From Lunularia cruciata (taxonomy: Eukaryota > Streptophyta > Marchantiopsida > Lunulariales > Lunulariaceae), in NCBI GenBank assembly GCA_948567375.1, contig OX419762.1, forward strand, positions 32,927,465-32,991,464: 64,000 nucleotides of DNA. The letters run 5' to 3'. Below the pieces are notes generated by a model. It was not told the DNA's origin and did no database searches. It saw only the letters and a program-made list of their open reading frames with translations. Positions 19,505 through 62,220 of the stretch are shown in pieces (position 1 is the stretch's first letter; every line of letters starts with the position of its first letter). Both the position numbers and the translations under genes were made by a program.

Positions 19505-19927
19505 TGTAACAATATGGAGTTTAGCAATTAAGTTAATAGGGCTAATGAAGTAGCAAATAAGATAAATTAGTCTAGAATATTCTAGAAGTATCTAGGAAGC
19601 TTCTTGGGAAGCTTCTTGGCTAGTTTAGCTTGCACCCCAAATAGGTAGCTTCTAGAAGGAAGCTTCTAGAAGCTTCCAATTAGCTTAGTTTGCATGCCAA
19701 AAAGTAGCTTCTGGAAGGAAGCTTCTTGAGAAGCTTCCCAATTAATTTAGCTTGCACTCCAAGAAATCAACTCAAGGAAAATTCTTGAGAAGCTTCTCAA
19801 GAGCCTTGTATGATCCCTATAAATACAAGAGCCAAAGCTCATGCTAGGCATTTGTAGTTTATCTACATTAAGTGTCCCAATGTGATCTCCATTCTCCTAT
19901 TTCTCTTCTTGGTTTTATTCTTTTACA
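19505..19927 (+). mobile_element. solo LTR of the same family, plus orientation
   Basis: It begins TGTAACAATATGGAGTTTAG, ends CTTGGTTTTATTCTTTTACA, and is 423 bp long. It has a CCCTATAAATAC TATA box at 19,816-19,826 and a perfect four-unit GAA/TTC array at 19,658-19,677. Flanks ATATA and ATGTA are a 4-of-5 match for a target duplication. It lies head to head with the solo LTR at 19,010-19,399. Confidence 0.82.
19658..19677. promoter_or_regulatory. heat-shock-element-like array in the solo LTR
   Basis: GGAAGCTTCTAGAAGCTTCC fits four contiguous alternating nGAAn/nTTCn pentamers, the canonical binding pattern of heat-shock factors. Upstream of the LTR TATA box by about 140 bp. Confidence 0.75.
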
Positions 19928-22249
19928 ATGTACTTGAAGAAGATGGTTGGATTGTTGTTGATGTACTTTGTCCTCTCTAGTCAAAATAATTTCATCATTG
20001 CCTATACAACCATGTTCCAAGTTGGATCCTTATAATTTCCCACCCTCTAGTTGTTGTTGGTGGACCTCTTCCCTTCAAAGGATGCAATGAGTTGTGCATT
20101 CATTTGCTTGTCTAGATGCCCAAACTTTGTATCAAGGGTTATGCCTGCAAGGTGACTTGTATCTAGAAAAAGGAATTTACTCCACTTTTCCTCTATCCCT
20201 CTCAAATCCCTTGTTGCTTTATCCTTCTTCCTCTTCAATAAATTCCTCTTCAATCATCAATAATCAAAAAATCACTAACCTCCTAATTCCAAAGCAAGAA
20301 GGAGAGATGCTTTCTTTGAATAAGCTCACTTTTATAATAAATTACCCATTTGTTCACTATTAGTGGACAAAGAATTGTCTCAAGGATCTTCTGAATAAAT
20401 AATATATTTCTTATAGAGTGCAAAGTACTAATTCAAACAGCTACAAAGTATTGTTAAAGATTGGAAAGAACTATGAAGGTGTAAGATTATGGCTTGCTCT
20501 TTGATTCAAGACTAAAAGTTGTAGCAAAAAGTGAAATTGCTCCAAATACACTTGATTTTATAGCTTGGGTTTTTAATCAATAGGTGGGAAATCACTCCAT
20601 ACACACATGAACCCTTTGGTGGATACCAATGGTCTTGGTTGCAATTCTTTGTCCAAGTGGTAGCACATTCAATTTGATGTAAGATCTTTGGATCCAAAGA
20701 TGTTCAAGGTCTTGAGTCTTTGGGTCTTTCAGTTTGAAGTACTTTTGTACTTGTATTCTTTGCCTTCGACCACTCTTTAGACTTGACCTTTTTTTCATTC
20801 TTCCTTTGGAGTGCCTTTGTGTTTGTAGTTGTTCCCTTCGTATCCTTGTATGTATATGCACAACTCCAAAGAAAACTCAACAATAGGTTTTATTTCATGA
20901 ACAAGCAATTATTCTACCATAACCTTGTAGAAAAGAGAACAAAAAAATAAAAAACAACTTTTGGAAAATGTGAGCAGTACGAGGTTCCCTTTGTTAAATT
21001 AGGCTTGCAATATATATTATTAAATTTTTATAAATTTTAAATTTATAAAAGATAGTTTAATTTTATTAAATATGTATTTTTCTATTTTATTTTGAAAATA
21101 TCAAACTTCTTCTATTTTTAGTCTCCAAAATATTATTACCACAAATTTAAGTATCTTGCTAGATATATTGTCTTCTTCCTTTGAGGTTTTTTGTAATTAG
21201 AAATCTAAAATTGATTACAAAATCCCCTTAAAATTTATTATTAAATATCTACTCTTTTCAAATAAGATTCAATTATTTATCTACTATCATTTAATAACTA
21301 AAAAGCCCATTAGTTATTGCTTAAACTTTGCTTTAAGAAGATAATTAAGGTTATAAAAGAGTAAATTCAAAAGAACAAGTGATTAGGATATAAGAGAAGA
21401 GATGGTCTAAGGATCCAAATAGAATATATTTGAAGTGCTAAAGATCGCATAGAGTCATGTTAATTATATCTGATACAAATATACTCTTATTTTCTAGCAA
21501 AGTTAACAATTAATTTCCAAGCCAAGTTTCTCAATCCATATGAAAGTTCCTCCATAACTTAGAGCCCTAATCTATACAAAGGAAGGTTCTTTCATACTTT
21601 CATACATATTCAAATTTCTTATAGTTTAGTAATTAGTCAATAACTAATTATGTAGACCATATTATTTAAGTTCAATTATTATCATTTTCATTCTTTTAAT
21701 CTAATTTAATATGAAGTATAATTATTAACAAACTATTTTAGTGAAAACCTATGCAATATGGCAAAACACTATTAAAGACAACCAAAATTAGAGTTTTAAG
21801 AATTTTGATATAACACTAGCTCTTAATTGAAATGTGGCCACTTGTTCTCTCCTTGCTCAAGTGATTTAACTTGAATTAGAGCATACATTTTCAAAGTGAA
21901 ATTAGAGTCTTGACACTTAATTGCTAACCAAAACTAATCAATATCTTGCTAATTATGAGTCAAAATCCAAGTTTTTCTCAAAACTTAGGCTAACAACACT
22001 ACCAACTTCAAATTTTATAATGAATGCAAGGATAGCTAAGAGTTTAGAAGGTTGTAGTATATTTAATGAACTTCAATATGGGTTTTTTATTTAGGAAATA
22101 TACTATTGATAATAAATATAGTAAACAAAGGATATATTCTTGAAATATATATCTATAAATATCATGTATTTCATATAAATATAGTTCAATGTGGTTGCTA
22201 CCTATAGTAGATATGTCTTACAACTTGATTTAAAATGAATATCTATGGA
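19928..22249. other. decayed TE-derived sequence
   Basis: No intact frame. A minus-strand piece around 20,050-20,250 and one at 20,590-20,860 have charged, gag-like composition. The stretch near 21,110-21,180 resembles, on the minus strand, the coiled-coil coding relic at 63.1 kb (shared TTGTG.TA.TAATATT.TGGAGA pattern). Assignment is tentative. Confidence 0.35.
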
Positions 22250-33676: not shown

Positions 33677-34181
33677 TGTAAAATATAGAGTTTATAGACA
33701 AGTTATTCAAGACTAAAAAAGTAGTAAATAGGCCAAAGTAACCAAGAATTATAAAAATATTTTAGAAGTATCTAGAAAACTACTTGGTACCTTCCAAGTA
33801 TCAAGTAATGTGCATGTCAAGTGGTGACTTCTAAGAGGAAGCCTCTTGGGAGCTTCTTGGCTAGCTTAGTTTTCATGCCAAGTAAATGATTTATAGAAGG
33901 AAGCTTCTTGGGAAGCTTCCTAATTAGCTTAGCTTGCATGCCTAGTAGACAGCTTCTAGAAGGAAGCTTCTTGAGAAACTTCTTGGTTAGCTTGGTTGGC
34001 ACTCTAAAAAGGTGGCTTTTAGAGAGTTTCTTAAGAAGCTTCTCAAGAGCCTTATATGTTCCCTATAAATACCAAAGCCCAAGCTCATGCTAGGCATTTT
34101 GAGTTTCTCTCATTCAAGAGTCCCAATGTGATCATTCAATTTGATCTTCCATTCTCCTATTTCTCTCCTTAGTCTTTAACA
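33677..34181 (+). repeat. 5' LTR of element A
   Basis: It begins TGTAAAATATAGAGTTTATA and ends AGTCTTTAACA. It contains GAAGCTTC-type palindromes and a CCCTATAAATACC TATA box near 34,061-34,073. A primer-site sequence follows directly. Confidence 0.88.
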
Positions 34182-34203
34182 TTGGTATTCAAGTAGGAAC
34201 GGG
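34182..34203 (+). other. primer-binding site of element A (tRNA-iMet type, mutated)
   Basis: TTGGTATTCAAGTAGGAACG follows the LTR and is a decayed form of the TGGTATCAGAGC primer site kept in element B. Confidence 0.8.
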
Positions 34204-34449
34204 ATAGATAGAATTTATGGACCACCAAATCCATTTTTATCAAACCATTAGAATTTTTATATCCATGTACTACCCAAGTATCATTTCACATAGTTCATCA
34301 TCTCATTCTTTGGGTAATTTTTTTTGAATATAATTATCTTGTAAGATGAACTCTTGGTGCTTCAAATTATAACTTATAGAAAATGGTGGATATGTTGCAT
34401 CTATGTGTAAAATTAGATAAGTATAGGTAGTTTGATAGAGTAGTAGCCA

Positions 34450-35330
34450 TGGTGGTAATGCTTGAAGTTATCATTGCTATGTAACAACAAATTGAGCACC
34501 TTACTTGATTGTTGGAAGAACAAGACCATCAAAAACAAGAGCATACATAGGAAGCAATATTTGAGAAAGAGAAGAGAAAATTTGATTTCCAAGGTATTTG
34601 AAGGCAAGAAGAATCTCTTGGGTGTAGCGGAGAATTTTATATTTGATTGTGAATGTTATTTTGAAGCTACAAATCTTTAAGATGAATAGAGATAAATTCT
34701 CTTAGCTTCAAACAAATTGGATGGAGTGGCAAAACTATGGTGGTGATTCCAAGTGGAGTAAGCTAAATGGCATTTTGTTGCTCCAATCTCAACATAAGAA
34801 GAATTCAAGAGCACAATAATTGGGTGATTCTAAGCTATAAATGCCTCATGAGTGGTATGAGATAGATTAATAAAATTGAAGCAAATTGGTTCTATAAGAA
34901 GCTACAACACTCAATTCTAGAACATTATAATGCAAATTCTAGATATACTAGAAGGTGAAGCTTTGGATCAATCTGTAAGGGATTTAAAGTCATGCACCAA
35001 ATTAGAAGTAACCATGCAAGAGCCCAAACACTTAGAGAAAGCCATGCAGTTGGTTGAGCATTTTGATTCCTTGGTTATAATAACTTGGTCTTGACCTCAA
35101 CCTTCACAAAACTTGCCCACACACTATACACAAGTGGAGGAGCCAGCACCAATGGAGATCAATGTCATCCAATGGCAACCACTTGGTACTATAGATAGAA
35201 AAAGATTGTGAAAAAATGGTGGTTGCTTTTATTGTTATCAAATTGAGCATTGTATTGCTGAATGTCCATTCAAGAATAGACAACCTTGACAAATTACCCA
35301 AATGGAGTTTGTAGAGCATAAGGATCAAGG
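34450..35330 (+). pseudogene. gag relic of element A
   Basis: 34,560-34,680 contains VFEGKKNLLG and NFIFDCECYFEATNL, matching VFEGKNISG and NVVFDCECYFEATNL in gag of element B. A CCHC zinc knuckle, CFYCYQIEHCIAEC, is readable at about 35,221-35,262. Stops are numerous, so no protein is expected. Confidence 0.8.
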
Positions 35331-35375
35331 AAAAAAATAATCCCAATAGGAGAATTTAAGCCACCTATTAGGAAT

Positions 35376-35766
35376 TTGATTAGTTTCAATAGGATTGAAG
35401 GCTTGATCTATGTAAGTTTGTTTCACTTGCAAGGTATCATATTTGATTGTGGTTATAAGATTTTGGTTGATTTTGGAAGTTTAGAGAATTACATATCTAT
35501 GCAATTAGCAAAGGAATTAAATATTCCTATCAAGCCAATAATTGGAAGTAGATTGATAATAGTGAAAGTAGAAAGTGTTTTGAATTCCATACCTCATATC
35601 CTATTACATTCAAGATTAGGAAGGAGTATTTGGAGTGTATGAGATTTTTAGTGGCACCTCTACACAATGATGTCATTCTAGATTTGCTTTGGCTTGAATA
35701 TCATAAGGTTCAATTTGATTGGACCCAACCACATATTCAAGTACAACAGCAAGGTAAAGATTATTG
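35376..35766 (+). pseudogene. protease relic of element A
   Basis: The frame from 35,376 reads a retropepsin-like segment with LVDFGSLENYISMQLAKEL, then continues in another frame to DVILDLLWLEYHKVQFDWT. The active-site triad position reads D-F-G instead of D-S/T-G, as in element B. Confidence 0.78.
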
Positions 35767-36049
35767 ATTAGGTTGTTTGGCACCTTTTAGTAAGACACCT
35801 AAGAATAATCAATCCTAAGATGGGAAGTTTTTTAGTAAAATAGCCATTGAGCAAGCTTTGGAAGAAGATATTCCTATTTTTTTGATGTGGATGAAGTTGA
35901 TTGTGCATGGAGGATCTGATGAAGACCAAAAGCTTCATCAAGCAATGGTTAATCAAATAGTTTAGGAGTTTGAAAATGTATGTTTGGATGATTTGCCAAA
36001 GGGATTACACTCCAATTGTGATATACTCTTCAAGATTGAGTTATTGCCA

Positions 36050-37340
36050 AGAAGTATGGTAGTGAATAGACCAATCTAACAGTTCTCACCAAAGGAGTTG
36101 GACAAGCTTTGAAAGACACTAACAAAGTTGTTGATGAAGGGTTTCATATAACATAGTATATCTCCTTGAGGAGCATTGGTACTATTTGTCCCAAAGAAAA
36201 CTAGAGGACTTCACATCTAGATTGATTACCATAGCCTCAATAAACAAACAATGAAGAATGCATAGCTCTTGCCTTGAATTAATAACTTGCTAGATCAGTT
36301 GATTGGAGCACAATACTTCTCCAAGTTGGATCTCCAAAGCAGCTATTGGTAGATTCTCATTGATAAAGAGGATGTGTAAAAGATTATCTTTTGCACAAGG
36401 TATGGGCATTTTGAATAGAGAGTTCTACCATTTGGGATCATTAATGCTCTAGTAGTCTTCATGAATCAAATGCATTGGGTGTTGGATGGACTATTGAATT
36501 GATACATGGTGGTGTTCTTAGATGATATTTTAATATATGGCAAGATGGAGGTAAAACACATAAATCACATGCAAGAAGTCCTAAGATGACTACGGCCATG
36601 GAAGCTTTATTGCAAGAAATCAAAATTTACCTTTTGGCATAAAGAAGTTACCTTCTTAGCTCATAAGATCTCACTAGAAAGGATCAAGATGGAAGAGGAG
36701 AAAATCAAGGCTATTACTAATTGGCTAACTCCAAAAGATGTCATAGAAACAAGAGCATTTAATGGATTGGCAAGGTGTTAGCAATGATTCATCTAATATT
36801 ATGCTCATGTAGGTGTACCATTGACCAACCTCTTGGAGAAGACCTCAAACTTTTAGTGGACCACCAAGCAAAAAGAAACATTCTTGAAGCTGAAACATAT
36901 GGTGTCTTCAAGACCCATTCTTCAACCATATGATCCTCAATTGCATTGTGTGGTTGTTTTTTATGCTTCTAACTTTGCCATGGGATTTGTGTTGCAACAA
37001 GAATTTCCATATGAGTTACATCCCATTACCTTTGTGTTTCACCAACTAAACATCACAAAAAATAATTACTTTTCTTGAGGTTGAGAAAAACTAGCAATGG
37101 TCTATGCCACCAAGGTAAGGAAGCATTATCTCTTGAGGAAACAAGTGATCATGCAAATCGATCACAAATCCTTGTTTGGAGCACATGAAGAGTCAACATG
37201 GGGGGGAAAATTATAGTTGTTTGACCTCAAACTTGAAGTACAAACCCAATAGGTTCCATGCATCCTTGATGCCCTATCATGACGACTTGATTTGAAGTCT
37301 CTTACTCTCATCACAATGGAAATTACAACAATGTAAATCA
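36050..37340 (+). pseudogene. reverse transcriptase and RNase H relic of element A
   Basis: Broken pieces of RT follow the same order as in element B. Examples are ALVLFVPKKTRGLHFxIDY near 36,170-36,240 and MVVFLDDILIYG near 36,506-36,541 (the F-x-D-D box). RNase H continues with VVVFYASNFAMGFVLQQEF at about 36,950-37,010. It ends with LDALS and RLDLKSL near 37,270-37,300. Multiple stops. Confidence 0.8.
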
Positions 37341-37559
37341 ACTCAAAATTCCAAATTGAGTTTTGGACAGCTTTATGACAAGAATCTTTCTTTCATATGG
37401 TACAAGGTCATCTTGTAGCACACAATAAGGAATACAATACCTTCTCTTTCAAGGACGGCCTTCTATTTTGTGAATACCAGATTTATGTTCTAGCCAAGGA
37501 GGATGGATATGGACAAGACTTGAGTACCCTACAATGCTAGTGGTGGTGTCCCAACATTG
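37341..37559 (+). pseudogene. integrase zinc-domain relic of element A, left of the B insertion
   Basis: Reads towards a QWWCPNIAQ-like motif that ends where element B begins. The same domain continues at 43,212 after B. Element B's own undisturbed copy reads QYQWWWPNMTQDVQEFV. Confidence 0.75.
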
Positions 37560-37564
37560 CACAA

Positions 37565-37990
37565 TGTAAAAGACCAAATCCAAGGAGAGAAATATGAGAA
37601 TGGAAACTCACATTGGGACACTTGAATGAGTGAAAATTCCAAATGCCTAGCATGAGCTTTGGCTTTGGTATTTATATGTAGCATACAAGGCCCTTGAGAA
37701 GCTTCTCAAGAAGTTTCCTCAAGCCACTTTCTTAGAGTGCAAGCCAAGTTAACTAGGAAGCTTCTCAAGAAGCTTCCTTTTAGAAGCTGCCTACTTGGTG
37801 TGCAAGCTAAGCTAGTTGGAAGCTTCTAGAAGCTTCCTTCTAGAAGCTACTTACTTGAGGTGCAAGCTAAGCTAGCCGGGAAGCTTCCCAAGAAGCTTCT
37901 TAGATACTTTTGGAATATTCTAGGCTAATTTGTCTTATGTGCTACTTCGTGAGCCTGACTAACTTCGTCACTAAACTCTATATTATTACG
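37565..37990 (-). repeat. 3' LTR of element B
   Basis: In plus sense it begins TGTAAAAGACCAAATCC and ends CTATATTATTACG (the terminal A mutated to G). It carries several GAAGCTTC palindromes and a TATA box (TATAAATA in minus sense) at 37,669-37,678. Confidence 0.95.
37818..37837. promoter_or_regulatory. heat-shock-element-like array, 3' LTR of B
   Basis: GGAAGCTTCTAGAAGCTTCC: four contiguous alternating GAA/TTC pentamers with correct 2-nt spacing, upstream of the LTR TATA box in the direction of transcription. Confidence 0.78.
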
Positions 37991-38039
37991 TATTCCCCAG
38001 GCGCTAGTTGGTGACGTCCTCGTTGCCAGTGAAGCTTCA

Positions 38040-38230
38040 AATTCTTGGATGGCCATTTGTGCATTCTAGAGGTAAGAAAGAGGTTTGCATGTGGCATCAT
38101 TAAGGGGATACCCTTTCCAAAGGACCTTGTACTCTATATGTTGGCGACGGCCTCATTGAATATGATGATGTGCAAGGATACGATCAACTTTGTACTCCTC
38201 ATGATCATTGATAGGGACATGAAGAGGGGG
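38040..38230 (-). pseudogene. chromodomain of element B
   Basis: The minus strand reads HEEYKVDRILAHHHIQ, a stop, then GRRQHIEYKVLWKGYPLNDA, the chromodomain pattern (EEYEVE.IL...R....YLVKWKGY). This places the family among plant chromoviruses, whose integrase-linked chromodomain guides insertion. A stop in the middle and another before the C-terminus inactivate it. Confidence 0.85.
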
Positions 38231-38332
38231 AGGTTGGACTCGAGAAGAAAAGGAAGAGAGGCTAGGAACAAAGAATTTCAACTTGGAAACATGAAAGACA
38301 GGATGGATACGCATGTTACAATGCAAGGCAAG

Positions 38333-39430
38333 TCAATAAGCAACAAGGGAGACAATTTGGGTGATATCAAAGGATCCTATCCAATTAGGGGCAAGTTTAT
38401 GAACTTGGGTATCATTTGGGAGAGGGAGGTTACTAGAGGATAACATGACTTTATCACCAATTTCAAAGGTGAGATCATGACGATGGTGGTCCGCATATTG
38501 TTTTTGGCGGTTTTGAGCAACAAGGAGGTGAGACTTGGCCTGTTGGAGAGATCGTGATATAGTGGTCAAGAATGTGGAAGTATCAGGAACTTGAGATAGA
38601 GGGAGAGCAAGAAGAGAATCCGGAACAAGCGGATCTTGGCCAACATTGAGAAAGAAAGGAGAAAATCCGGTGCTTGCATGTTTGGAATTGTTGTAGGCAA
38701 ATTCTACAGCTGCAAGACATTCATCCCAATTGGTATGGTGGACATTGACAAAAGCACGCAACATATCCTCCAATGTACAATTTGCACGTTTGGTTTGTCC
38801 ATCAATTTAAGGATGATAGGCCGTGGACAAAACAATCTTGGTGTTGAGTATCTGGAAGAGTGCTTGCCAAAACTTCCCGGTAAATCAAGGATCACGGTCA
38901 GAGATGAGTACACGTGGCATTCCAAGATGTTTGAAGACATTGTTGAAGTAGATTTGCGCTAAGTTCGAGCAGCCACGGTATCACATGTTGGTGCCAAGTA
39001 GATTTGCTTACTAGCTTATCTACAAATACCACGATTGCGGTGTGTCCTTGTTTTGTCTTTGGCAAGGATGTGATGAGATCCAAACTCACATGCTCCTAGC
39101 AAGCGGATGGAATGGTGAGTGGTTGAAGGAGTCTACTTGGCTTTTGGTTGCTGGCCTTGTTACGTTGGCAGCTCTCACACAATCAAACAAATTCTTGAAC
39201 ATCTTGTGTCATGTTGGGCCACCACCATTGATATTGGAGGGTACTCAAGGTCTTGTTCACACCCATGTGACCCGTGATGGGTAAATCGTGGGCTTCTTGA
39301 AGGCACACAAGTTGAAGATCCTCTTTAGTTGGAACATAGATCCAGTCGTCTTGGAATAAAAGGCACTCCTTGATGGAGAAGGTGTTGTACTTCTTATTGC
39401 ATGCCGTAAGGCAACCATGTACCATTTGGA
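38333..39430 (-). pseudogene. integrase of element B
   Basis: Minus-strand frames in order: zinc domain with HDLPITGHMGVNKTLSTLQY and WWWPNMTQDVQEF (39,183-39,425); catalytic core start SLDLITSLPKTKQGHTAIVV (38,898-39,089); and C-terminal part with EFAYNNSKHASTGFSPFFLN and DKVMLSSSNLPLP (38,333-38,773). Frames change between the pieces, so the enzyme is not made intact. Confidence 0.88.
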
Positions 39431-40260
39431 AGAAGAGATCTTGGTGTAGAGCTGACTAAAACTTGTTTTGGACCTTGGAGTCAACTTACACTATTGAAAT
39501 TGCCGTTGTGATGAGAGGAAGAGACTTCAAATCAGGTTGTCGTGATAAAGCATCAGGGATGACATGGAACCAACCTGGTTTGTACTCAAGTTTGATGTCA
39601 TATAGTTGGAGTTGTTCCTCCCATTGATGGTGTCAACTCTTCATGTGTTCCAAGTGTAAGGTTTGCAACAATGATTTGTGATCAGTTTGCATGATCACTT
39701 GTTTCCCCAAGAGGTAATGCCTCCATACCTTGGTGGCGTATACCATTGCAAGTTGTTCTTGATCTTGAGCAAAGTAGTTTTGTTCAGCCATATTGAGTCA
39801 GTGAGACACAAAGGAAATGGGATGGAGTCCATCTGGGAATTCTTGTTGTAGCACGGCTCCAATTGCAAAGTTAGAAGCATCAAAATCAACCACACAAGGT
39901 AGTTGACGATCATATGGTTAAAGAATGGGTCTTGAAGACACCATATGCTTTAACTTCTGGAATGCTTCTTCATGCTCAATGGTACATTGGAAGGTCAAGT
40001 TCTTTCCCAAGAGGTCAGTCAATGGTGCAGCCACATGAGCATAATAATGGATACACCGTTGGTAAAAACTGGCCAATCCATTGAATGCCCATACTTTTGT
40101 AGCATCCTTTAGAGTAGGCCAATCAGTAATGGCCTTGATCTTCTCTTCTTCTATCTTGATCTCCTCTGATGAGATCTTATGACCCAAGAAGGTAACCTCC
40201 TTCTACCAAAAGGTACACTTTGACTTCTTGCAGTAAAATTTCTATTGTCATAGTCATCTT
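39431..40260 (-). pseudogene. RNase H of element B
   Basis: 39,918-40,187 carries the RT connection (GHKISSEEIKIEEEKIKAIT, WPTLKDATKVWAFNGLASFY). The following sequence holds the RNase H text around CVVDFDASNFAIGAVLQQEF, with the first catalytic Asp. Interrupted by frameshifts and stops. Confidence 0.82.
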
Positions 40261-41101
40261 GGGACTTCTCGCACATGATTCATGTGTTCTACCTCTATCT
40301 TACTTATTAGATATCATCCAAGAACACCACTATGGACCAATCCAATAGTCCATCCAATGCCCAATACATCTGATCCATGAAGACTATAGGAGCATTAGTG
40401 AGTCCGAAAGGTAGAACTCTCCACTCAAAATGCCCATACCTTGTACAAAAGGCAGTCTTTTGCACATCCTCTCTCTCAATGGAAATTTGCCAATAGCTGC
40501 TGCAAAGATCCAACTTGGAAAAGTAGCGTGCTCTACTTAATCGATCAAGCAAGTCATCGATCCAAGGCAAGGGATATGCATTCTTCACGGTTTGCTTATT
40601 GAGCCCACGATAATCAATATAGAAATGAAGTCCTCTATCCTTCTTTGGAACAAATAGTACCGGTGCTCCCCAAGGAGAGGTACTATGTCGTATGAAGTCC
40701 TTCTCCAACAACTTTGTAAGTGTTGTTCACAACTCCTCCAACTCCTTTGGTGAGAGCCAATAGATCGGTCTACTCAATGGAGTACTCCTTGGCAATAACT
40801 CAATCTTGAAGGGCATACCTTGATTGGAGGGTAATCCCTTTGGCAGATCATTCGGATACACGTCCGCAAACTCCTTAACTATCCAATCAACCATTGCTTG
40901 ATGAGGCTCTTGGTCCTCCACAGATTGTTCTTGTGCAATCGGCTTGATCCACACCATGAATACAGACTTATCTTCCTCCAAAGCTTGCTCTATGGTTCCT
41001 TTACTAACAAACCTCCCTTCTAGGGACTCATCTCTCTTCCAAGCTTGCTCCATGGTTGCCTTCTTGGCAAACTTCCCATCTTTGGAATCCACTTCCTTCA
41101 A
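40261..41101 (-). pseudogene. reverse transcriptase of element B
   Basis: 40,307-40,711 is an almost continuous RT core: [45 protein letters not shown] and the catalytic F-L-D-D box (VVFLDDI). Upstream 40,727-41,101 holds the region before the fingers (FADVYPNDLPKGLP, IELLPRSTPLSRPIYWLS). One stop separates the two. Of all coding parts of A and B this is the best preserved. Confidence 0.92.
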
Positions 41102-41190
41102 GGTTGCTCTATGGCTACCTTCTCGACAAACTTCCTATCTTGGGACTGACTATCCTTAGGTGTCTTACTCAAAGGTGCCAGACAACCTAA

Positions 41191-41515
41191 TCATAAATTC
41201 CTACCTTGGTGTTGTACTTGAATTTGGCATTGGGTCCAATCAAATTGAACCTTATGACATTCAAGCCAAGGTAGACCTAGAAGGATATCATAGTGTAGAG
41301 GTGCCACTACAAACCTCATACACTCTAAATACTCCTTCCCAATCTTGAAGGTAACAGGATGCGAGGTGCAGAATGCAGAACCCTTTCTACTATCCGCCAT
41401 CATCAAACTACTTCCAATCATTGGCTTGATAGGAATAACCAATTCCTTTGCTACTTGCATAAACATGCAATTCTGTGAACTTCCAAAATCAACCAAAATC
41501 CTATAACCCTAATTA
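41191..41515 (-). pseudogene. protease of element B
   Basis: Reads LVDFGSSQNCMFMQVAKELV, then IGKEYLECMRFVVAPLHYDI and LLGLPWLECHKVQFDWT, a complete retropepsin fold region. The active-site triad is D-F-G where retropepsins have D-S-G or D-T-G. Element A shows the same D-F-G. Confidence 0.85.
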
Positions 41516-41619
41516 GATATCATACCTTGCAAGTGAAGCAAACTTGCATAGGTTGAGCCTTCAATCCCATTGGAACTAATCAAGCTTCCAATAGGCGGCT
41601 TGAAATCTCCTACTGGGAT

Positions 41620-42514
41620 TCCTCATTTCCTTGATCATTTTGCCCCACGACCTCCACTTGGGCAGCTTGTCAAGGTTGTCCATTCTTGAGTGGACATTCA
41701 ACAATGCGATGCCCCAATTGGCGACAATAAAAACAACCACCATTTTGTTGCAATTTCTTTCTATCTGCTATGCCAAGTGGTCTTTGTTGAATGGCATCAA
41801 TCTCCATGGGTGATGGGTCCTCCACTTGTGTGTAGTGTATTGGTAGGCTCTATGGAGGTCAAGGTCAAGACCAAGTTGTTGCCACGAAGGAATCAAGACG
41901 TTTGGCCAACCGCATGGCTTCCTCCAAGTGTTGTGGCTCTCACATGGTTACCTCTAATTTGGTTTTTGCCTTCAAGCCCCTCACAAATCAATCCAGAGCT
42001 TCACCTTCCAATATATCTAGAATTTGCATGATGGTGTTTTGGAACTACGTGATGTAACTTCTTACAGAGCCAATTTGTTTCAACTCTGCCAACTTATCTT
42101 GTGCACTTGTGTGGTATTTATAGCTTGGAACCGACTAATTATTTTGCTCTTGAATTCTACCCATGTCAAGATTGGTGCAAAAATTTGTCATTCCACTCAC
42201 TCCACTTGGAATCTCCACCATAGCTTTGCTACTCCATCCAATTGGCTAGAAGCCAAGAGAATCTGTTTTTGCTCATCTTGTAGATTGGTAGCTTCAAAAT
42301 AACATTCACAATCAAACACAACATTCTCCATTGCACCTGAAATATTCTTGCCTTCAAATACCTTGGGTTTAAGGAATCTAATCCAATCTTCTCCTTCTTG
42401 AACTGGTACTCTCTCCACCTGCTCTTGTCGTCAAAGATCTTGTTCATCCAACAATCGAGTAAAGTGCTCAATTTGTTGATGCATAGCAAGGATAACATCG
42501 GGTATTGCCGCCAT
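41620..42514 (-). pseudogene. gag of element B
   Basis: The start ATG at 42,514 reads MAAIPDVILAMHQQIEHFTR, a stop soon after, then VFEGKNISGAMENVVFDCEC and AKLWWRFQVE (capsid). A CCHC zinc knuckle, CFYCRQLGHRIVEC, lies at about 41,695-41,736. Several stops and frame changes lie between. Confidence 0.88.
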
Positions 42515-42766
42515 GGTTGCTACTCTATCATACCACTCCCAATCTATCTAATTTATTAACACATAGAAACAACACGTCTACCGTTCTCCATAAGTTACAA
42601 CCGGAAGCACCAAGGGTTCCTCAAATATGGTGATGATATGCAAAAAATCTTGTCCAAAGTGCGAGGTGATGAATTGTATGAAATGATGCTTGGGTAGTAT
42701 TTGGATGCAAAAATCCCAATGGTTTGGTGGAAGTGGATTTGGTGGTCCATAAATTCCATCCATCCC

Positions 42767-42784
42767 ATTCCTGCTCTGATACCA
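42767..42784 (-). other. primer-binding site of element B (tRNA-iMet)
   Basis: TGGTATCAGAGCAGGAAT in minus sense, one nucleotide inside the 5' LTR. TGGTATCAGAGC complements the 3' end of initiator tRNA-Met, the usual primer of plant chromoviruses. Confidence 0.95.
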
Positions 42785-42888
42785 ATGTAAAAGACCAAAT
42801 CCGAGGAGAGAAATATGAGAATGGAAACTCACATTGTGACACTTGAATGAGTGCAAATTCCAAATGCCTAGCATGAGCTTTGGCTTTG

Positions 42889-42900
42889 GTATTTATAGGT
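42889..42900 (-). promoter_or_regulatory. LTR TATA box of element B
   Basis: ACCTATAAATACC on the minus strand. The same box is kept in both B LTRs, the A LTRs and the solo LTR at 19.5 kb. The GAA/TTC array lies about 140 bp upstream. Confidence 0.8.
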
Positions 42901-43038
42901 AGCATACAAGGCCCTTGAGAAGCTTCTCAAGAAGCTTCCTCAAGCTACTTTCTTAGAGTGCAAGCCAAGTTAACTAGGAAGCTTCTCAAGAAGCTTCCTT
43001 TTAGAAGCCGCATACTTGGTGTGCAAGCTAAGCTAGTT

Positions 43039-43058
43039 AGAAGCTTCTAGAAGCTTCC
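43039..43058. promoter_or_regulatory. heat-shock-element-like array, 5' LTR of B
   Basis: AGAAGCTTCTAGAAGCTTCC: four contiguous alternating GAA/TTC pentamers. It lies in the promoter-proximal part of the LTR that would drive transcription of B. Confidence 0.8.
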
Positions 43059-43211
43059 TTCTAGAAGCTACTTACTTGAGGTGCAAGCTAAGCTAGCCGG
43101 GAAGCTTCCCAAGAAGCTTCTTAGATACTTTTGGAATATTCTAGGCTAATTTGTCTTATGTGCTACTTCGTGAGCCTGACTAACTTCATCACTAAACTCC
43201 ATATTTTTACA

Positions 43212-44400
43212 CACAAGATGTTTGAGAGTTTGTTTGATCTTGTGAAAGCTTTCAACATAATAAGGCTAGCAACTAGAAACAAGTGGACTCCTTCAAACAA
43301 TTTTTGTCCCATTTGTTGGTTGGGAACATGTGAGCTTAGATCTCATCACCTCCTTGCCCAAGACAAAGCAAGGTCACAAAAGTCATGGTGTTTGTGGATA
43401 AACTTAATAAGCAAATCCCTTTAGCACCAACCTTTAATATAGTGGATGCTCCAACATTGGCCTTGATCTACTTTCATAATGTCTTCAAGCATCATGGAAT
43501 GCCTTGTGTATTCATCTCTAACCGTGATCTTCAATTTATTAAAAAAATTGGCGAGCACTCTTCTATATCCTTGGCACCAAGCTTACTTTGTCCATGGCCT
43601 ATCATCCTCAAACTGATTGACAAACTAAACATGAAAATTACACCTTGGAGGATATGCTTTGTGCCTTTGTCAACATTTACCCTACCAACTAGGATAAATG
43701 TCTTGTAGTTGTTGATTTGGTTTATAATAATTCCAAACAAGCAAGCTTCAGATTCTCTCACTTCTTTCTTAATTTTGGCCAAGACCCACTTGTTCTAGAT
43801 TCCTTTCTTGCTCCTCTTCCATCTCATGTCCCTCATAATTCTACCTTCTTGACCACAATATCCCAATCCCTACAATAAGCCAAATTTCATCTCCTTGTTG
43901 CTCCAAATCATCAAAAAAAATATGCAAACCAACATCATCATGATCTCACCTGTCAACTTAGTGATAAGGTCATGTTTTCTTCTAGTAATCTACCCCTCCC
44001 ACTTGATACCTAAGTCCAAAAACTTACTTCTAATTGGATAGGTCCATTTGATGTCACCCAAATAATTTCTCTAGTTGCTTATCAACTTGCCTTGCCTTGC
44101 CTTGCCTTTTCATATGCAAATCCATCCTATCTTTCATATTTCCAAGTTGAAACCATCTTCTTTTTCCTCTCATGTCCTACCTTCCCTTCCTCCCATCCCT
44201 ATCAATGATCATGAAGAGTATGAAGTTGATTGTCTCCTTGCACATCACTACATTCAATGTGGCCGTTAACAATATAATGAGTACAAAGTCCTTTGGAAAG
44301 AGTATCTCCTTCATCATGCCACTTGGGAGCCTCTTTCTCATCTACAAAATGCACAAATAGCCATTCAAGAGTTTGAAGCTTCCATGGTGATGAATATATT
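43212..44400 (+). pseudogene. integrase and chromodomain relic of element A, right of B
   Basis: Resumes the integrase interrupted at 37,559. It reads VMVFVDKLNKQIPLAPTF and DAPTLALIYFHNVFKHHGMP, then FISNRDLQF (the second catalytic Asp region). At 44,205-44,340 it reads the chromodomain HEEYEVDCLLAHHYIQCGR followed by a stop and YKVLWKEYLL. It then runs into the middle LTR. Confidence 0.83.
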
Positions 44401-44416
44401 ACCAACTAATAGTGGG

Positions 44417-44900
44417 GTGGTTACTTACAAGTTAGTCGGGACTAATGAAGTAGAAAATAAGCCAAATTAGCCCAAGAATTATAAGAATTTTCTAGAAGTA
44501 TCTAGGAAGCTACTTGGTACCTTCCACGTATTGGATAATGAACATGCTAAGAGGTGATTTCTAAGAAATAGCTTCTTGGCTAGCTTAGCTTACATGCCAA
44601 GTAGGTGGCCTCTAGAATAAAACATATTGGGAAGCTTCCCAACTAGCTTAGCTTGCATACCTAGTAAGTGGCTTCTAGAAGGAAGCTTCTTGAGAAACTT
44701 CTTGGTTAGCTTGGCTTACACTCTAAGAAAATGGTCTTTAGAAAGTTTCTTGAGAAGCTTTTAGAGAGCCTTGTATGTTCACTATGAATACTAAAGCCCA
44801 AGTTCATGCTAGGCATTTGGATTTTCACTCATTCAAGAATCCCATTGTGATCTTTCATTTTGATCTTCTATTCTCCTATTTCTCTTCTTGGTCTTTTATA
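44417..44900 (+). repeat. middle LTR of element A
   Basis: Shares ACTAATGAAGTAG, CTACTTGGTACCTTCCACGT-like sequence, GAAGCTTC palindromes and the end CTTGGTCTTTTATA with the two outer LTRs. Its first nucleotides are degenerate. The integrase text follows directly, with no primer site or gag, so the second internal region is largely deleted. Confidence 0.82.
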
Positions 44901-45984
44901 ACATCCATGCCCAAGACAAAGCAAGGTCATATAACAATTGTGGTGTTTGTCAATAGACTTAGTAAGCAAATCCATTTGGCACCAACCTTTGATATATTGG
45001 ATGCCCCAACATTGGCCTAGATCTACTTCAATAATGTCTTAAAACATCATGGGATGCCTTGTGTACTCATCTCCAATTGTGATCCTTGATTCATTGGAAA
45101 ATTTTGGCCAGCACTCTTCTAGCTACTTGGCACCAAGCTTACTTTTTTCATGGTCTATTATCCTCAAACTGATGGACAAATTGAGCATAAAAGTTGCACC
45201 TTGGAGGATATACTTTGTGCATTTGTAAACATTAACCATGCCAAGTAGGATAAATGTCTTGCAATTGCTGAGTTTGCTTATAATGATTCCAAACAAGCAA
45301 GCATCAGATTCTCTCTCTTCTTCCTTAATTTTAGCCAATACCAACTTGTTCTAAATCCCCTTCTTACTCCTTCTCCATCTCATGTTCTTTTTACTTTCAC
45401 CTTCTTGACCACAATATTCCAATCCCTACAACAAGCCAAATCTCATCTCCTTGTTGCTCAAAATTGTCAAAAACAATATACAGACCAAAATTGTTGTGAT
45501 TTCACCTTTCAACTTGATGATAAGGTCATACTTTATTCTAGTAACCTACCCCTCCCACTTGATACCCAAGTCCAAAAACTTGCTCCTAATTAGATAGGTC
45601 TATTTGATGTCACCCAAATCATTTCTCTTGTTGCTTATTGACTTGCCTTGCCTTGTCATATGCAAATCCTCCCTATCTTCCATACTTCTAAGTTGAAACC
45701 TTTTGTTTCTTATCCATCTTCCTTTTCTTCTTGTATCCAACCCCCTCCTTCTCCCATCTCTATCAACAATCATGAAGAGTATGAAGTTCATTGTATCATT
45801 CCACATCACCACATTCAACATGGCCGCCAACAATATATTGAGTACAAAGTCTTTTGTAAAAGGTATCTCCTTCATGATGCTACTCGAGAGTCTCTTTCTC
45901 ATCTCCTAAATGCACAAATAGCCATCTAAGAGTTTGAAGCTTCCATGGTGGCAAGTATATCACCAAACTAGTGGTGAGGGAATA
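44901..45984 (+). pseudogene. second integrase and chromodomain copy of element A
   Basis: Repeats the segment at 43.34-44.40 kb: CCAAGACAAAGCAAGGTCA, then VVFVNRLSKQIHLAPTF and DAPTLA, QQAKSHLLVAQNCQKQYTDQ, and the chromodomain HEEYEVHCIIPHHHIQHGRQ. It ends at GTGGTGAGGGAATA, a polypurine tract before the last LTR. Broken by stops and frame changes. Confidence 0.83.
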
Positions 45985-46468
45985 TAGAACAATATGGAGT
46001 TTATAGATAAGTCAATTGAGACTAATGAAGTAGCATATAGGCCAAATTAGCCCAACAATTATAAGAATATTTTAAAAACATCTAAGAAGCTACTAAGTAC
46101 CTTCAAAGTATCACGTAATATGCATGTCAAGTGGTGATTTCTAGGAAGAAGCTTCTTGAGATGCTTCTTGGATAGCTTAGCTGGCGTACCAAGTAAATAG
46201 CTTTTAGAAGGAAGCTTTCCAACTAGCATAGCTTGCATGCTAAGTTGGCGGTTTTTAGAAGGAAGCTTCTTGAGAAACTTATTGGTTAGCTTGGCTTGCA
46301 CTCTAAAAAGGTAGCTTTTAGGAAGCTTCCTAAGAGCCATGTATGTTATCTACAAATACCAAAGTCCAAGCTCATGCTAGGCATTTGGAGTTTCCCTCAT
46401 TCAGGAGTCTCAATGTGATCTTTCACTTTGATATTCCATTCTCCTATTTCTCTCCTTGGTCTTTTATA
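45985..46468 (+). repeat. 3' LTR of element A
   Basis: It begins TAGAACAATATGGAGTTTAT (first bases mutated from TGTAAC) and ends CTTGGTCTTTTATA. Flank AAAGG follows, pairing with GAAGG at the left end of element A. Confidence 0.85.
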
Positions 46469-46473
46469 AAAGG

Positions 46474-52680: not shown

Positions 52681-54948
52681 AATGTGAGCATCCCCGCGAA
52701 CATAGATCTTGGGTGTCTTTGATACTTCCGAGTCTATGGTCCAATATCTCCCAACTCTCCACTTGTTTACTCGAGTGGCAAAAGGATTAACTTCCAAGTC
52801 TACGAGCTGCATGGACCCATTGTCGTACAGATGAAGAACTTGATAGGGACCCATCCATCTCAAATGCAACTTGCCTGGAAAAAATATTCGGCAATTGTCA
52901 TATAACAAAACCAAATCCCCTTCTCGTACAGCTATAGGCTTGATTTTCTTATCGTGCCTGACTTTCCTCTGTGCTTGTACTTCTTTCGTGGTTTGCATTG
53001 CATCGTCTCTTTTCTCTTCTAACCACATCAGTTGATGAATCCGAAGATCTTGACTTTCCTCTTCCAACATTCGTTCTTTGCAAAGAATCCGATACATCGG
53101 AACTTCAAATTCAACTAGCAGTATGGGATGCAAGCCATATGTCAAGAAGTATGGAGTTTGTTTGGTTGTAATCTTCTCTATCATTTGATATGCCCACAAC
53201 GCGGCTGGTAATTTCATATCACAATCATAGGCATAATTGACAGTCACCTTATTCAAAATTTTACAAAGTAACCCATTTGCTTTTTCCGTTAAGCCATTTG
53301 CTTTTGGGTTATAAGGAGTCATCTTCCGATGTTTAATCTGAAAGTACTTGGTTAATGCCTCCATTATAGAGTTCAAAAAATGTGTTCCTTTGTCACTGAC
53401 CAATTCCAAAGGACACCCATATCGGGAGATGATGTTTTGAAAGAAGAATTCCGCCACAGTTTCAGCATCATCTCTGCGAGTTGCTTCAGCTTCAACCATC
53501 TTGTTAGCATAGTCAATGCAAACCAAAATGTATCAGTTTCTTGTGACTTGGGTCATTGGTTGAATGGGACCCACAAAATCAATCCCCCATTTCTCAAATG
53601 GGGCAAAAGGCAAAATTGGTCTCAAAGGCCATTGAGAGGTAGCCGTCGGCTTCTCCGTTCTCTGACAAGTATCACAGCTTCGGATATGAGCATGTACATC
53701 TTTGTACATTGTAGGCCACCAATACCTTGCCAAAAGAATTTTCTTTACAGTATTCTTCAGAGCATAGTGTCCTCCCGATGCTTTGGAGTGTAAAGATTCA
53801 ATCACTCCTCCTACTTCGTATGTCTCCAAGCATCGCCGAAGTACTTTGTCTTTGCCCATCTTAAATAAAATATTGTGTTTGAGCTGGTATGGCCCCATCT
53901 TCCTGAGAAAGACTGCCCGCTGTTCCGGGTCCATCCCTTCAAGACAATAGAGAGTATGCAGATATTGATATTCAGCTACATACCTCGTACTTCGCATTGC
54001 TGATAAGTGATACAACTCTTCGTCAAGGAACCGATCGTCAATTTGCCACTCTTGGTCTTGAGTTTCTAACCTATAAAGGAAGTCCACATTCAAATGCAAA
54101 GCTCCCTTCCTTACTTGTACAATATACGTGAACTCTTGTAGCAACAAGATCCATCTTGCAATTCGCCCTGATAAATCTGCCTTCTTGACCAAATGTTGCA
54201 ATGCGTAATGGTCAACATAGAAGACAAACTCATACCCCAACAAATAATGATGAAATTTCTTGCAGGCATACACCATTCCGAGTGCTTCTCTTTTAGTCGT
54301 CAAATAGTTCTTTTCAGAAACTGAAAGTTGTCGGCTGGCATAATACACCAGGTAGTCCTTCTTCTTCTCGTCCTTCTGACTTAAGACGACTCCGATAGCC
54401 ATGGACGAAGTGTCCACATATACATGGAAAGGGACGTCCCAATTCGGGGCCCTCATAACTGGTGCTTCAACCAATTTCTTCTTCAACACCTGGAAAGCTT
54501 CTTCTTGATTTGCTTCCCACAGATAGTCTTCGGATTTCTTTAGAAGCTTTGTAAGTGGTGTAGCAAGCACTGCATAGTTTGACATGAAGCGTCTGTAATA
54601 TCCGACATGTCCCAAGAAGGCTCTCAGCTCCCGGATGTTCTTTGGGGATTCCAAAGCTGCGATTATCTTGACCTTCTCAACATCAACTTCAATTTCTTGG
54701 CTTGACACCCAATGCCCCAGAAGAATTCCCTCCTTCATTGCGAAGAAGCATTTCTCCGAGTGTAATGACAAGCCGGCAAAACGACACCTTTCAAACGTTT
54801 GGCAAAGGTAATCTAAATGTACATCTCTTTGCCCAAACACACAAAAGTCATCAATAAAAACTTCCACAAATTTGTGCAGGAAATCTTTGAAGATTGAATT
54901 CATCATCCGTTGGAAAGTAGCGGGAGCATTACACAACCCAAAGGGCAT
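52678..54948 (-). pseudogene. pol of element C: RT palm, RNase H, integrase
   Basis: 54,948-53,533 is a 471-codon open stretch. It has MPFGLCNAPATFQRMMNSIF, the catalytic F-I-D-D box (VFIDDFCVFG), RNase H (YVDTSSMAIGVVLSQ, KREALGMVYACKKFHHYLLG, YVDHYALQHL) and the integrase zinc domain (GGHYALKNTVKKI, SCDTCQR). The core starts at WGIDFVGP. A single TGA near 53,530 separates it from 53,526-52,678 in the same reading: DYANKMVEAEATRRDDAETV, SDKGTHF, NGLTEKANGLL (catalytic Glu), then DLVLLYDNCRIFFPGKLHLR. So the integrase is broken once. Sequence type fits the Athila/Tat side of Ty3 elements. No chromodomain is present. Confidence 0.93.
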
Positions 54949-58821: not shown

Positions 58822-59822
58822 AAATCATGTGACAACCCGGCAAATATCACTTTTGCAGTAATCGGGTAAGTAAAGTTCGTTCCCGTAGAGATACGAGTCA
58901 GAAATGTCCAAATACAAAGTCAAACAATAAAAATGTAGTTCTTCTTGGTTGCGTCTTTAATCTCTCAGGTAGAAACCACACCCAAAAGAGAGTAACAAGC
59001 ACTGATTTGCAGTCTTGTCACAAATTAACACTCCATAATCACAACTCCATCAAATCTTTCCAAACAATCTTGATTGTGATGATTCAAGCTCTCCCGAAAA
59101 TGGCACTTCACTGCAAAATGATTTTGCCTCAGAATTGTGTTCCACCCCTCCACTGAAGGCACAACTTCCTCGATCGAAATTGCTTCACATCAACTTTGCA
59201 CTGCACTCACAAATGCAGAATACTACCAACACTACAATTCCTCTCAGATTTGTCAAGGCATTGCTTTGATTGCACTTCACTCAAGATCAAACACACAAAA
59301 TGAAGATCAAGGCTATGGAATCCAACATCCAACAAGCACAATGACTTGCACTTCAAATTTCTCCACACACTCACAAACACAATCACAAAGTTGATACTTA
59401 GAATCAAGCTCAAGCGATGAGCACTGCTTCACAACACTTTGCTTTATCTATTCTTAGAAATAATGAGCATTGAACAACATTAGACTGCAAATGCCACTCT
59501 TAAGTAGTGAAGCAATCTATAGTTATCTTCCTAATGTACCTCCTCCTAACAACTCTACAAACTTGCAGATCTGAAATGACAATGCAACCCTTCATATCTG
59601 CCTATTCAAATCTCAAATCGGTTACTAATTTGATCCGATGTCTACTTCTTCCTCGGCTTTCAAACTTGAACCCGAAGTAACTTAACTTCATAATATTTTG
59701 TCCTTGAGTTTCACATCTTCTACTTCTTCTACCAGATCCAGCAATTCTTTTTCCTAATCTGAAATTCCACTAGTGGGTAATCTATCTAACTCCTCATCTC
59801 CCGACCCACTCTTCTCTAATGT

Positions 59823-62063
59823 CTACACTGGTAACTCCAAAGACATTTGTATTCCTATGTTATCTACTTTGAGTTTTGCTCTAACATCCTTCCAAAGCTT
59901 TTCTATATCTATTTTCACTAAGTCTAATCTAATTGAAATGTTGTCTTCTACTTCTAATATCTTCCTGTCTACACGAGTTCTTAACTTAATCAACAAGGCA
60001 TTCAAATCAGTGTCTTTTGCCTGTCTTTGCCTCATCTCCTGCACTAACAACTTCAACTCGTGCAGTCTCGTCTCTTCAATTCAAATGCTGGCCTCTGTAC
60101 TCAACATTGTGTTCATCCTGAGGATTATCTCCTTCACTGGCTCCAATCTCATCTTTCTCTCTTGCTCTCGATCTGCAAGCCAGTCCTCCCTATACATCGC
60201 CAACTCCTCTTTGAACTCGGCTTTCACCGCCTCCTTCTCCTTCTCTTTCTGAACAACCTTCTCCTCTTGACTATGAAGTAACTCTTGTAATCAATCTTTT
60301 TCTCTGTATCGTGCCGCCAAATCTCTTTGCCAGAGTTGCTTCTTCTCCTCGACACTCTCCATCACCCTATCAAGCTCTTGATCCTTTGCTACTACTCTCG
60401 CCATAGCATGGATTACTTCTACTCTTGAATCAACAAACTGCTGCTTCAAGATTTCATACTCCGCTACTTGTCTATCCCTTGCTATGTTACTCTTCTTCAC
60501 AAGATCCTCTTGAGAACTTACTTCTCTCTTCAGGTCTTTGATTACCTGACTTCTCTCTACTGCCTCCGCTCGTAGTACTTCTCTTTCCTCCTCACCTCGG
60601 GTTATACTCTTCTTCAACTCTGAGTTCTCTTCTTCTAATCGCGCTAATACCTACAATACAATCTTTACCTCTGGACAAGTCGACTGCATCTCCTTCTTCC
60701 TGTGCTCTAATTTCACCAACAATGGGCACACCACCTCCTGCAGGTACTCCACTCCATCTCTCACAACTACTTCTTCCTGCATAGAAATCTCCTTCCTTAC
60801 CTCTTCTTCACCCGATACTTGCCTTCTCCTCTGCAGTCTTCGTATCAGAATCAAAGCCTCACTTCCCAAACTTTCTCCTACCTCTTCCTTTACTTTACTT
60901 GGCCCCGCTTCACACTTCGCCTTACGTCTTGAGCAAACTCCTTGCTGTACTGCAATCTTCTTTTCTTTGGGCACAGTTACTTTGTCTTCCAATTGTGTGT
61001 TGTCTTCGGCTTCCATCTCGGCTTGCACTGCTTCTTCGTAGTCATCAGCTGCTGGTGCCAATGTCATGTCTCCCCCTTCATCACTATTGCTACTCGTATC
61101 TCCACTCTGCAGCGTTAGCTCATGCTCCTCCTTGTGTTCCGAGTCTTCAGTTTTTAGCTCGGCATCTTCTTCTAAGTCTTTGTCCTCCGACTCAATTACC
61201 ACCATACCTTGCCTTGGGTTGCCTCTCCGCGTCTTCCGAGGTTTCTTGATGTCGTCGGCTTCACCTTGCTGACCCCTCTCCTTTGACTTCGGAGTACTCG
61301 CTTCTATCTCCACGCTCTTACCCATCTTCATGTAGTACTCATCCGTGCTCCGGATTTGAAGAATGTACTGTTGTTCCTCCACGTCGACTTCTCTTCTCAA
61401 TCCGGGATGGAAGTGAGACACCATTTTATTTCACTCCGCCGATTTGAGCAAATTCAACCCAAGGTAGAAATGTGCTGCAAACGGCACGATGTAGTGTGGA
61501 GGCGACTTATCCCGCAAATTCCACACCATCTGTCTTGTCCTCCCATGGAAGCACCTTGCTCAATTAATAGATTCTCCTGCAAACAACTTATGGAAGAACA
61601 CCGCTTGGTGTTTCATCACATAAGTTGTTCTCTCCGGCTTCAAGATTGCCATAAGAGCACTCACAATCCCTCTCTTCACTGGATCCTTGTAACTCTCAAC
61701 CTTATACCCATTCTTCATTCTCTTCAAAGAGAAAGCATCTCTCACCTCTTGAGTCTCCTAAGCTATCTCTCCCTTCCCCAAGAACGTGGCTCCTTGCTCC
61801 AAGCCTGCCTCCTTCCCGAGTACGAGTCTCCAATTTGACTTTGTCCAGCGAGCCGGATTTCCTCTCTTCCCTTCTTCCTCGGGTCCATCAAGACACTTAC
61901 TCTCAATGATTTCTATCATGAACCCTGGAAAGCTTACATTCCAGTTCCATGCCAAAAATGTGATCCGAAGTCGGCTCAAGACTTTGATCCTTGCTATTAC
62001 GTCTAACCTACGAATTGCATGATTTCTCACTGCAAATTTGGAGTTCTTCTTTCCCCCTCCCAT
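59823..62063 (-). pseudogene. LTR-encoded coiled-coil protein gene, 5' LTR copy (continuous 747-codon frame)
   Basis: ATG at 62,063 (MGGGKKNSKF) and final stop at 59,823: 2,241 nt, divisible by three. Landmarks at 61,745, 61,424, 60,617 and 60,056 are all in this one frame, so no net frameshift has occurred. Six in-frame stops interrupt it (at about 61,758, 61,560, 61,431, 60,651, 60,291 and 60,08x). At those I compared, the 3' LTR has a sense codon: CAG for TAG, TGG for TGA, CGA for TGA. Domains: globular N-terminus, acidic middle, coiled coil with KLRTRVDRKILEVEDNISIR near the end. Function unknown; possibilities are a chaperone-like or env-like accessory protein or a chromatin tether. Confidence 0.85.
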
Positions 62064-62220
62064 CTCTTCTACTTTCTCACTCTCTCTCGTTTCACTCTCG
62101 CAACTTCTCCCTTGTGCACTAACACAATTCCAACTCTATTTCCCTTCCCACAATCACTTGCAAGACGACTTCGCAATGGCAAAGGAAAATTACTTGACAT
62201 TTTGTCATTGCAAGTTCAAT

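Follow-up and report, generated by a model that had tools for sequence, protein, structure and literature searches.

Long terminal repeats (LTRs) are treated as noncoding control regions, and recombination between the two LTRs of an element is the way in which genomes discard retrotransposon genes. Can a protein-coding gene reside inside an LTR? We address this question in a 64,000-nucleotide stretch of the Lunularia cruciata genome (contig OX419762.1, positions 32,927,465 to 32,991,464; hereafter the window), which contains a Ty3/gypsy retrotransposon that we call element C. An initial annotation of the window had proposed that each ~3.8-kb LTR of this element holds a sense-strand gene, present twice per element. 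The follow-up upholds this proposal through a reading frame common to 38 aligned LTRs, codon bias, and a low ratio of nonsynonymous to synonymous substitution rates (dN/dS).

An LTR gene under coding constraint in the replicating lineage

A search of the 566-Mb genome with the LTR gene gave 9,641 first-look candidates, 40 of which were scored as matches; these favour complete genes, so the share of solo LTRs and the intactness reported here are not genome-wide figures. One of the 39 fetched loci (L009) is the window's own 3′ LTR, leaving 38 others. The 36 loci that span the gene (L031 and L041 do not and were excluded) were aligned with the two LTRs of element C to give 38 rows. Across these rows, the gene frame runs for 2,511 nt without a majority stop, compared with at most 720 nt for the other five frames. 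Per row, the gene region contains 7.0 stops in the gene frame; the other two sense frames contain 38.8 and 71.2, and the antisense frames 18.7 to 22.1. Most copies among the 38 rows keep this extra open reading frame (ORF) besides gag-pol; because the gene itself served to pick the rows, copies without it would escape.

Counted over the columns occupied in most rows, the family frame comprises 2,574 nt, or 858 codons, and extends from a conserved ATG near position 62200 (present in 35 rows) to a stop at positions 59627-59625. The start of the protein is similar, as read by eye, in four diverged lineages. Taken alone, the first 46 codons give a weak signal (6/8/12 variants shared by three or more rows at first, second, and third codon positions, and 10/13/4 private variants). 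The initial annotation had described a 2,241-nt frame broken by stops without net frameshift, and its minus-strand translation indeed shows 747 codon positions interrupted by in-frame stops alone. The ends given for that gene had to be revised: the stop at 59823 is private to the two LTRs of element C and is a sense codon in 36 of the 38 rows. The complete gene copy in the 5′ LTR contains in-frame stops, and its first part is frameshifted. Twelve of the 38 rows are free of frameshifting indels. Most stops (222 of 272, among the twelve classes listed) stand where other rows have CAG, CGA, CAA, or TGG, as expected of cytosine deamination in silenced copies.

Changes acquired after insertion, which are private to one row, should ignore the frame, and constraint should be visible in changes that came down from active source elements. 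Variants found in at least three rows were distributed 164/153/259 over the three codon positions and those shared by two rows 57/34/70; private variants were distributed 209/204/201. Within an 812-codon core, chi-square tests gave P = 5e-8 for variants shared by three or more rows, P = 0.92 for private variants, and P = 4e-4 for shared transversions (18/10/35); these values are a guide only, because some of the shared variants are recurrent mutations and not every one is an independent event. Codon-phase counts in the LTR flanks upstream and downstream of the gene were flat (38/36/41 and 60/55/53). Collectively, these counts show coding constraint on the LTR gene while its lineage replicates, and decay without codon bias once a copy has inserted.

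The 38 fetched loci comprise 22 solo LTRs, 6 5′ LTRs, 5 loci called as 3′ LTRs, and 5 unclear loci, one of which (L042) is a 3′ LTR by its attached pol. The 22 solo LTRs have 5-bp duplications matching at 4/5 or 5/5 bases, and they carry the gene. The suggestion that a solo LTR would keep the gene whole was therefore correct as to retention but not as to intactness, since all rows contain stops and private substitutions are flat whether counted in the 22 solo LTRs (167/157/166) or in the remaining 16 rows (135/123/134). These flat counts give no sign that solo copies were kept working. Host domestication of solo-LTR genes was considered and rejected, as the 22 solo LTRs show no post-insertion codon bias.

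The gene in diverged lineages of the same genome

Several of the fetched copies are inserted in or adjoin more distant relatives of the same LTR, and seven such lineages were compared with the window. In all seven, identity to the window, counted over blastn-alignable bases only, distinguished third codon positions (50.6 to 70.2%) from first and second positions (69.8 to 88.0%). Three of 23 comparisons with the window (two at L014, one at L036) were set aside as nested copies of the window's own family; their dN/dS was 0.43 to 0.89. By the Nei-Gojobori method, dN/dS was 0.10 to 0.44 (median, 0.20) in 15 of the remaining 20 comparisons, and the other five were saturated at silent sites. These 20 comparisons overlap: L012 repeats part of L048, L030 is part of L049, L014 overlaps L050, and there are further overlaps between L046 and L051, between L051 and L054, and among the L036 pieces. 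Stops were omitted and post-insertion decay is included in dN/dS, so the values for living lineages are probably lower. Pairs of outer copies sharing at least 60 codons gave measurable dN/dS of 0.13 to 0.62. Integrase differences between L012 and the window (21/24/71 by codon position) are as expected of a constrained gene. The initial annotation had named beforehand a long family frame and a low dN/dS as the test of its proposal; both were found, the first in 38 rows and the second against the window. We consider it very probable that an old and real gene, under selection, resides in the LTR.

The placement of the gene could be read in several of these lineages. In L012/L048, pol, a purine tract, the LTR start, the gene, and the LTR end follow in that order, which places the gene in a 3′ LTR. 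An LTR start and an LTR end enclose the gene in L014/L050/L052, L046/L051/L053, and L051/L054; neither pol nor leader sequence was found next to these three. The LTR tail runs into primer-site-like sequence in L036 and L019, which are thus 5′ LTRs; in L030/L049, the LTR end alone was seen. Some of the outer LTR starts and all of the flanks were read by eye, and the outer copies have imperfect target duplications. Beyond the lineage of the window, at least four others have the gene between both LTR ends. Several of the outer LTRs hold a nested copy of the window's family; such insertions into the LTRs of related families are seen at L014, L019, L030, L036, and L046.

Between lineages, the noncoding LTR tail (window positions 58828-59624) shows greater similarity than the adjoining gene. 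Both regions were available in six lineages, where identity to the window was 81.9 to 89.4% in the tail and 66.4 to 73.8% in the gene; divergence at the silent sites of the gene exceeds that of the tail. The tail does not stand out as uniform within the family. The gene appears to have a history that differs from that of its flanks, most simply through recombination between lineages, or else the tail may be strongly constrained. Greater divergence of the gene than of the tail would be expected either if the gene encodes a lineage-specific factor or if it is a module swapped by recombination.

Structure of element C and its LTR protein

Except for its LTRs, element C is an ordinary Ty3/gypsy element (Table 1). 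The initial annotation had delimited the LTRs by target duplication, primer site, and polypurine tract, and these boundaries stand: the two LTRs, which are 94.8% identical, have TG...CA ends, and the 5-bp target duplication CTCAC is found at both outer flanks. The internal order is gag and then reverse transcriptase (RT), RNase H, and integrase, as in Ty3/gypsy elements, with the integrase core just below the Pfam cut-off. The primer-site-like sequence, which may resemble that for a tRNA-Asp primer, has comparable counterparts adjoining related LTRs in L019 and L036, and other 3′ LTRs of the fetched copies are also preceded by purine tracts. The best named relatives of pol (positions 53533-54948) are from liverworts, namely Riccia sorocarpa (67%), Marchantia polymorpha (64%, over half of the query), and Calypogeia fissa (~50%). 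The L. cruciata genome is described as enlarged through Ty3/Gypsy bursts (PMC9985172).

Table 1. Coordinates of element C, its LTR gene, and associated signals in the window
Feature	Start	End	Strand	Basis
Ty3/gypsy element C, ~13.7 kb	48868	62609	-	LTR pair, target duplication, gag and RT/RNase H/integrase domains
5′ LTR, 3,782 nt	58828	62609	-	LTR alignment, TG...CA ends
3′ LTR, 3,799 nt	48868	52666	-	LTR alignment, TG...CA ends
LTR gene in 5′ LTR, family frame of 858 codons plus stop	59625	62200	-	38-row alignment
Frame of the initial annotation, 747 codon positions	59823	62063	-	Translation, row alignment
LTR gene in 3′ LTR, likewise broken	49665	52250	-	Row alignment
Longest unbroken LTR-gene stretch in the window, 369 codons, 3′ LTR copy	50690	51799	-	Uninterrupted frame
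Only TATAAA of the LTR, 33 of 38 rows, candidate promoter	62222	62227	-	Row scan
ATTAAA in LTR tail, 29 of 33 rows, possible poly(A) signal	58956	58961	-	Row scan
Primer-binding-site region	58790	58827	-	Primer-site-like sequence directly after 5′ LTR
Polypurine tract	52667	52690	-	Directly before 3′ LTR
gag, Retrotrans_gag	57684	57935	-	Pfam, E 2.7e-7
gag CCHC zinc knuckle region	56231	57238	-	Pfam scan
RT, RNase H, integrase zinc-binding domain	53533	55053	-	Pfam scan
Integrase core (rve)	52678	53532	-	E 1.4e-7, just under Pfam cut-off

Two further observations concern the rest of the window. Outside element C, the minus strand at positions 20058-19936 carries a decayed fragment, an older relative, whose identity to a portion of the LTR protein's N-terminal region is ~37% (E 7e-4). 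Positions 33838-46469 hold a nest of related direct and inverted repeats that are 72 to 97% alike, with more copies near 19505-19931.

The LTR protein has ~860 residues, with a conserved N-terminal region, an acidic middle, and a C-terminal half that is charged and has little proline or glycine. The acidic middle was part of the layout first proposed and is borne out by composition (codons 241-400, 26% aspartate and glutamate versus 16% lysine and arginine). The N-terminal region ends in basic clusters that reappear in the aligned lineages, as read by eye. No membrane span was found, the best 19-residue Kyte-Doolittle mean being 1.13.

A database match for the LTR protein, a search for which the initial annotation had suggested, did not emerge from Pfam, from PDB sequences, or from two length-limited protein searches. 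Pfam scans of the open pieces of the protein (E up to 1 and 10; HMMER filters drop most weak matches) gave no family, only weak sub-cut-off matches to unrelated models. They held no match to gag, the zinc knuckle, Athila ORF-1, the plant mobile domain, Transposase_28, or Transposase_32 (PF20167). A likeness of the N-terminal region to Transposase_32 was considered and dropped as unsupported; a genome-wide search for the PF20167 family found nothing, but its controls found nothing anywhere either. The search of PDB sequences found no relative. The two protein searches, which accepted only proteins of 0.55 to 1.75 times the query length, gave no match; the first row query had 368 residues, so a full-length relative of ~860 residues was beyond their reach. 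The protein database searched does hold liverwort proteins, as the pol search showed. AlphaFold2 applied to A2 returned a mean pLDDT of 37, and the model was not usable.

Possible roles of the LTR gene and known systems

What could such a gene do for the element? Our preferred reading joins a selected, LTR-resident gene with a nuclear role of its product in regulating its own family, and we give the two jointly a probability of about 0.55. The regulatory role by itself, that of an element-specific nuclear factor, is tentative and falls somewhat short of even odds; it is suggested because the protein is not Gag, is not Env, and has no known domain, together with its composition. Under this reading, an old Ty3/gypsy lineage would keep an accessory protein gene wholly inside its LTR. 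The protein would be made from RNA starting in the first part of the LTR and, as a nuclear and perhaps self-associating protein, would help the expression of its own family, by transactivation or by countering silencing. Location in the LTR would protect the gene from loss through LTR-LTR recombination and would give each LTR the potential to be a self-contained gene. If the TATAAA and ATTAAA signals mark the ends of the RNA, the gene would lie in the R region and each LTR would be a complete gene. It is possible, although doubtful, that the LTR, solo LTRs included, is a gene cassette whose lineage-specific protein acts in trans to keep its own LTRs expressed or unsilenced. If true, transposition would multiply a selfish regulatory gene that escapes the recombination by which element genes are normally removed.

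Several results weigh against the combination of a selected gene with a nuclear regulatory role. None of the 38 rows is intact, each having 3 to 14 in-frame stops (median, 7). The promoter that the initial annotation expected near 62190 found no support: the single TATAAA begins 27 nt before the conserved ATG, which is too close for an ordinary promoter of that ATG, and a TATA box of the TATAAA form occurs in two of four other lineages. No 6- to 8-mer in the first 411 nt of the LTR (three lineages) exceeded the maximum of 200 shuffles, and thus there is no sign of binding-site repeats there. Heptad periodicity in three C-terminal stretches was matched by 57, 274, and 124 of 1,000 shuffles and is not significant, so the C-terminal coiled coil of the first layout is suggested only. 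The highest dN/dS values among outer pairs fall in C-terminal pieces and in one 84-codon L036 piece, which indicates weaker constraint there. Within the family, seven copies, too few for a firm control, show no clear third-position excess in integrase (26/30/34 private, 22/24/12 shared). Over a short stretch of RT-RNase H, six copies gave 14/6/22 private and 7/8/3 shared variants, and the LTR gene in W3 and the same six copies, set beside this within-family pol control, gave 109/102/169 and 64/69/73. Like constraint on the LTR gene and pol within the family cannot be shown. Finally, no homologue or fold from Pfam, PDB, the protein searches, or AlphaFold2 backs a biochemical role.

Among other explanations, the one that we take most seriously is a structural or replication accessory, that is, a second Gag-like or RNA-chaperone protein entering particles. 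The charged C-terminal half poor in proline and glycine and the basic clusters seen by eye would suit such a protein, and a role in every replication cycle fits the constraint. However, element C already has a gag with a zinc knuckle, and the open pieces of the LTR protein match neither, which leaves this explanation unlikely though well worth keeping in view. We find it less likely again, and improbable, that the gene limits competitors as a copy-number or superinfection control factor, in the way that endogenous sag limits infection by mouse mammary tumor virus (MMTV). A protective effect of endogenous sag is reported (PMC12548423), and retention of the gene in 22 of 38 loci as solo LTRs could keep up the dose of such a factor, but the flat private substitutions of the solo LTRs indicate that the solo copies seen were not kept functional.

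The remaining explanations fare considerably worse. Sense additional ORFs between pol and the 3′ LTR in plants are often called env-like (PMC7264820), and an env-like or movement protein might be considered on that ground; the LTR protein has no hydrophobic segment long enough to span a membrane, and we reject an env-like protein as very improbable. Equally improbable is a captured host gene carried as a passenger without a role for the element. The lack of a known domain would allow an unrecognised host origin, but a passenger would drift, and this gene has been kept in the LTR and constrained over seven further lineages, whose silent sites are nearly saturated. The many stops in the window copies would speak for a frame open by chance, or for constraint on DNA or RNA instead of protein. 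Against this stand the 2,511-nt stop-free majority frame, the low dN/dS, and a third-position excess that is present in shared variants and absent from private ones and from the LTR flanks; we reject a chance frame as hardly credible.

The preferred reading of a selected LTR gene with a regulatory product can be set beside several known systems. New here is the residence of a sense-strand additional ORF in the LTR; extra ORFs as such are already known. The accessory gene sits where LTR-LTR recombination cannot remove it. Annotation limited to genes between LTRs would miss this class, and what such families leave behind as solo LTRs are remnants of genes. It also becomes testable whether retrotransposons gain by placing a gene in the LTR. 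No plant case of a gene inside an LTR was recognised in the open-licence literature, as covered by exact phrases in titles and abstract starts. Coe1 of beet, announced in the title of its paper as a gene within LTRs, was considered as a precedent and set aside, because its gene lies in a central region between two 169-bp LTRs (PMC2426827).

The extra ORFs of plant elements (aORF or eORF; Athila, Ogre, Retand, Grande, RIRE2, Retrosat2/RIRE3/RIRE8, and Tekay) are likewise protein genes beside gag-pol; they are described as heterogeneous and without assigned function, and some are predicted to be nuclear (PMC7264820, PMC6317226, PMC11963269, PMC11728184, PMC3485330). Published descriptions place them in the internal region, either before or after gag-pol (PMC7264820, PMC11963269), and where PMC6317226 sorts extra ORFs, it assigns them to the 5′ or 3′ part of the element without mentioning LTRs as a place. 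The gene described here differs in that the LTR ends enclose it, both in the window and in no fewer than four other lineages, and in being present in both LTRs and in solo LTRs. The eORFs of Athila, Ogre, and Retand differ further in their Athila ORF-1, plant mobile, and Transposase_28 domains, none of which is matched by the open pieces of the LTR protein in Pfam. Retrosat2-type long-LTR Gypsy elements share LTRs of more than 3 kb and an extra ORF, but the account of ORF0 in PMC3485330 describes it upstream of the gag-pol ORF and does not place it in the LTR.

For the suggested mechanism only, a likeness may be drawn to VANC of VANDAL transposons, a family-specific, diverging protein that acts on its own noncoding DNA (PMC5735166). 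VANDAL elements are DNA transposons, however, and no repeated target motif was found in the first 411 nt of the LTR in three lineages. The parallel with MMTV sag that was drawn initially holds for position and for nothing beyond it. In MMTV, too, a protein gene lies within the LTR (PMC12548423); MMTV is an animal retrovirus with sag in the U3 region, whereas the gene described here is placed only between the LTR ends. In position, then, the LTR gene of L. cruciata is a plant counterpart to MMTV sag.
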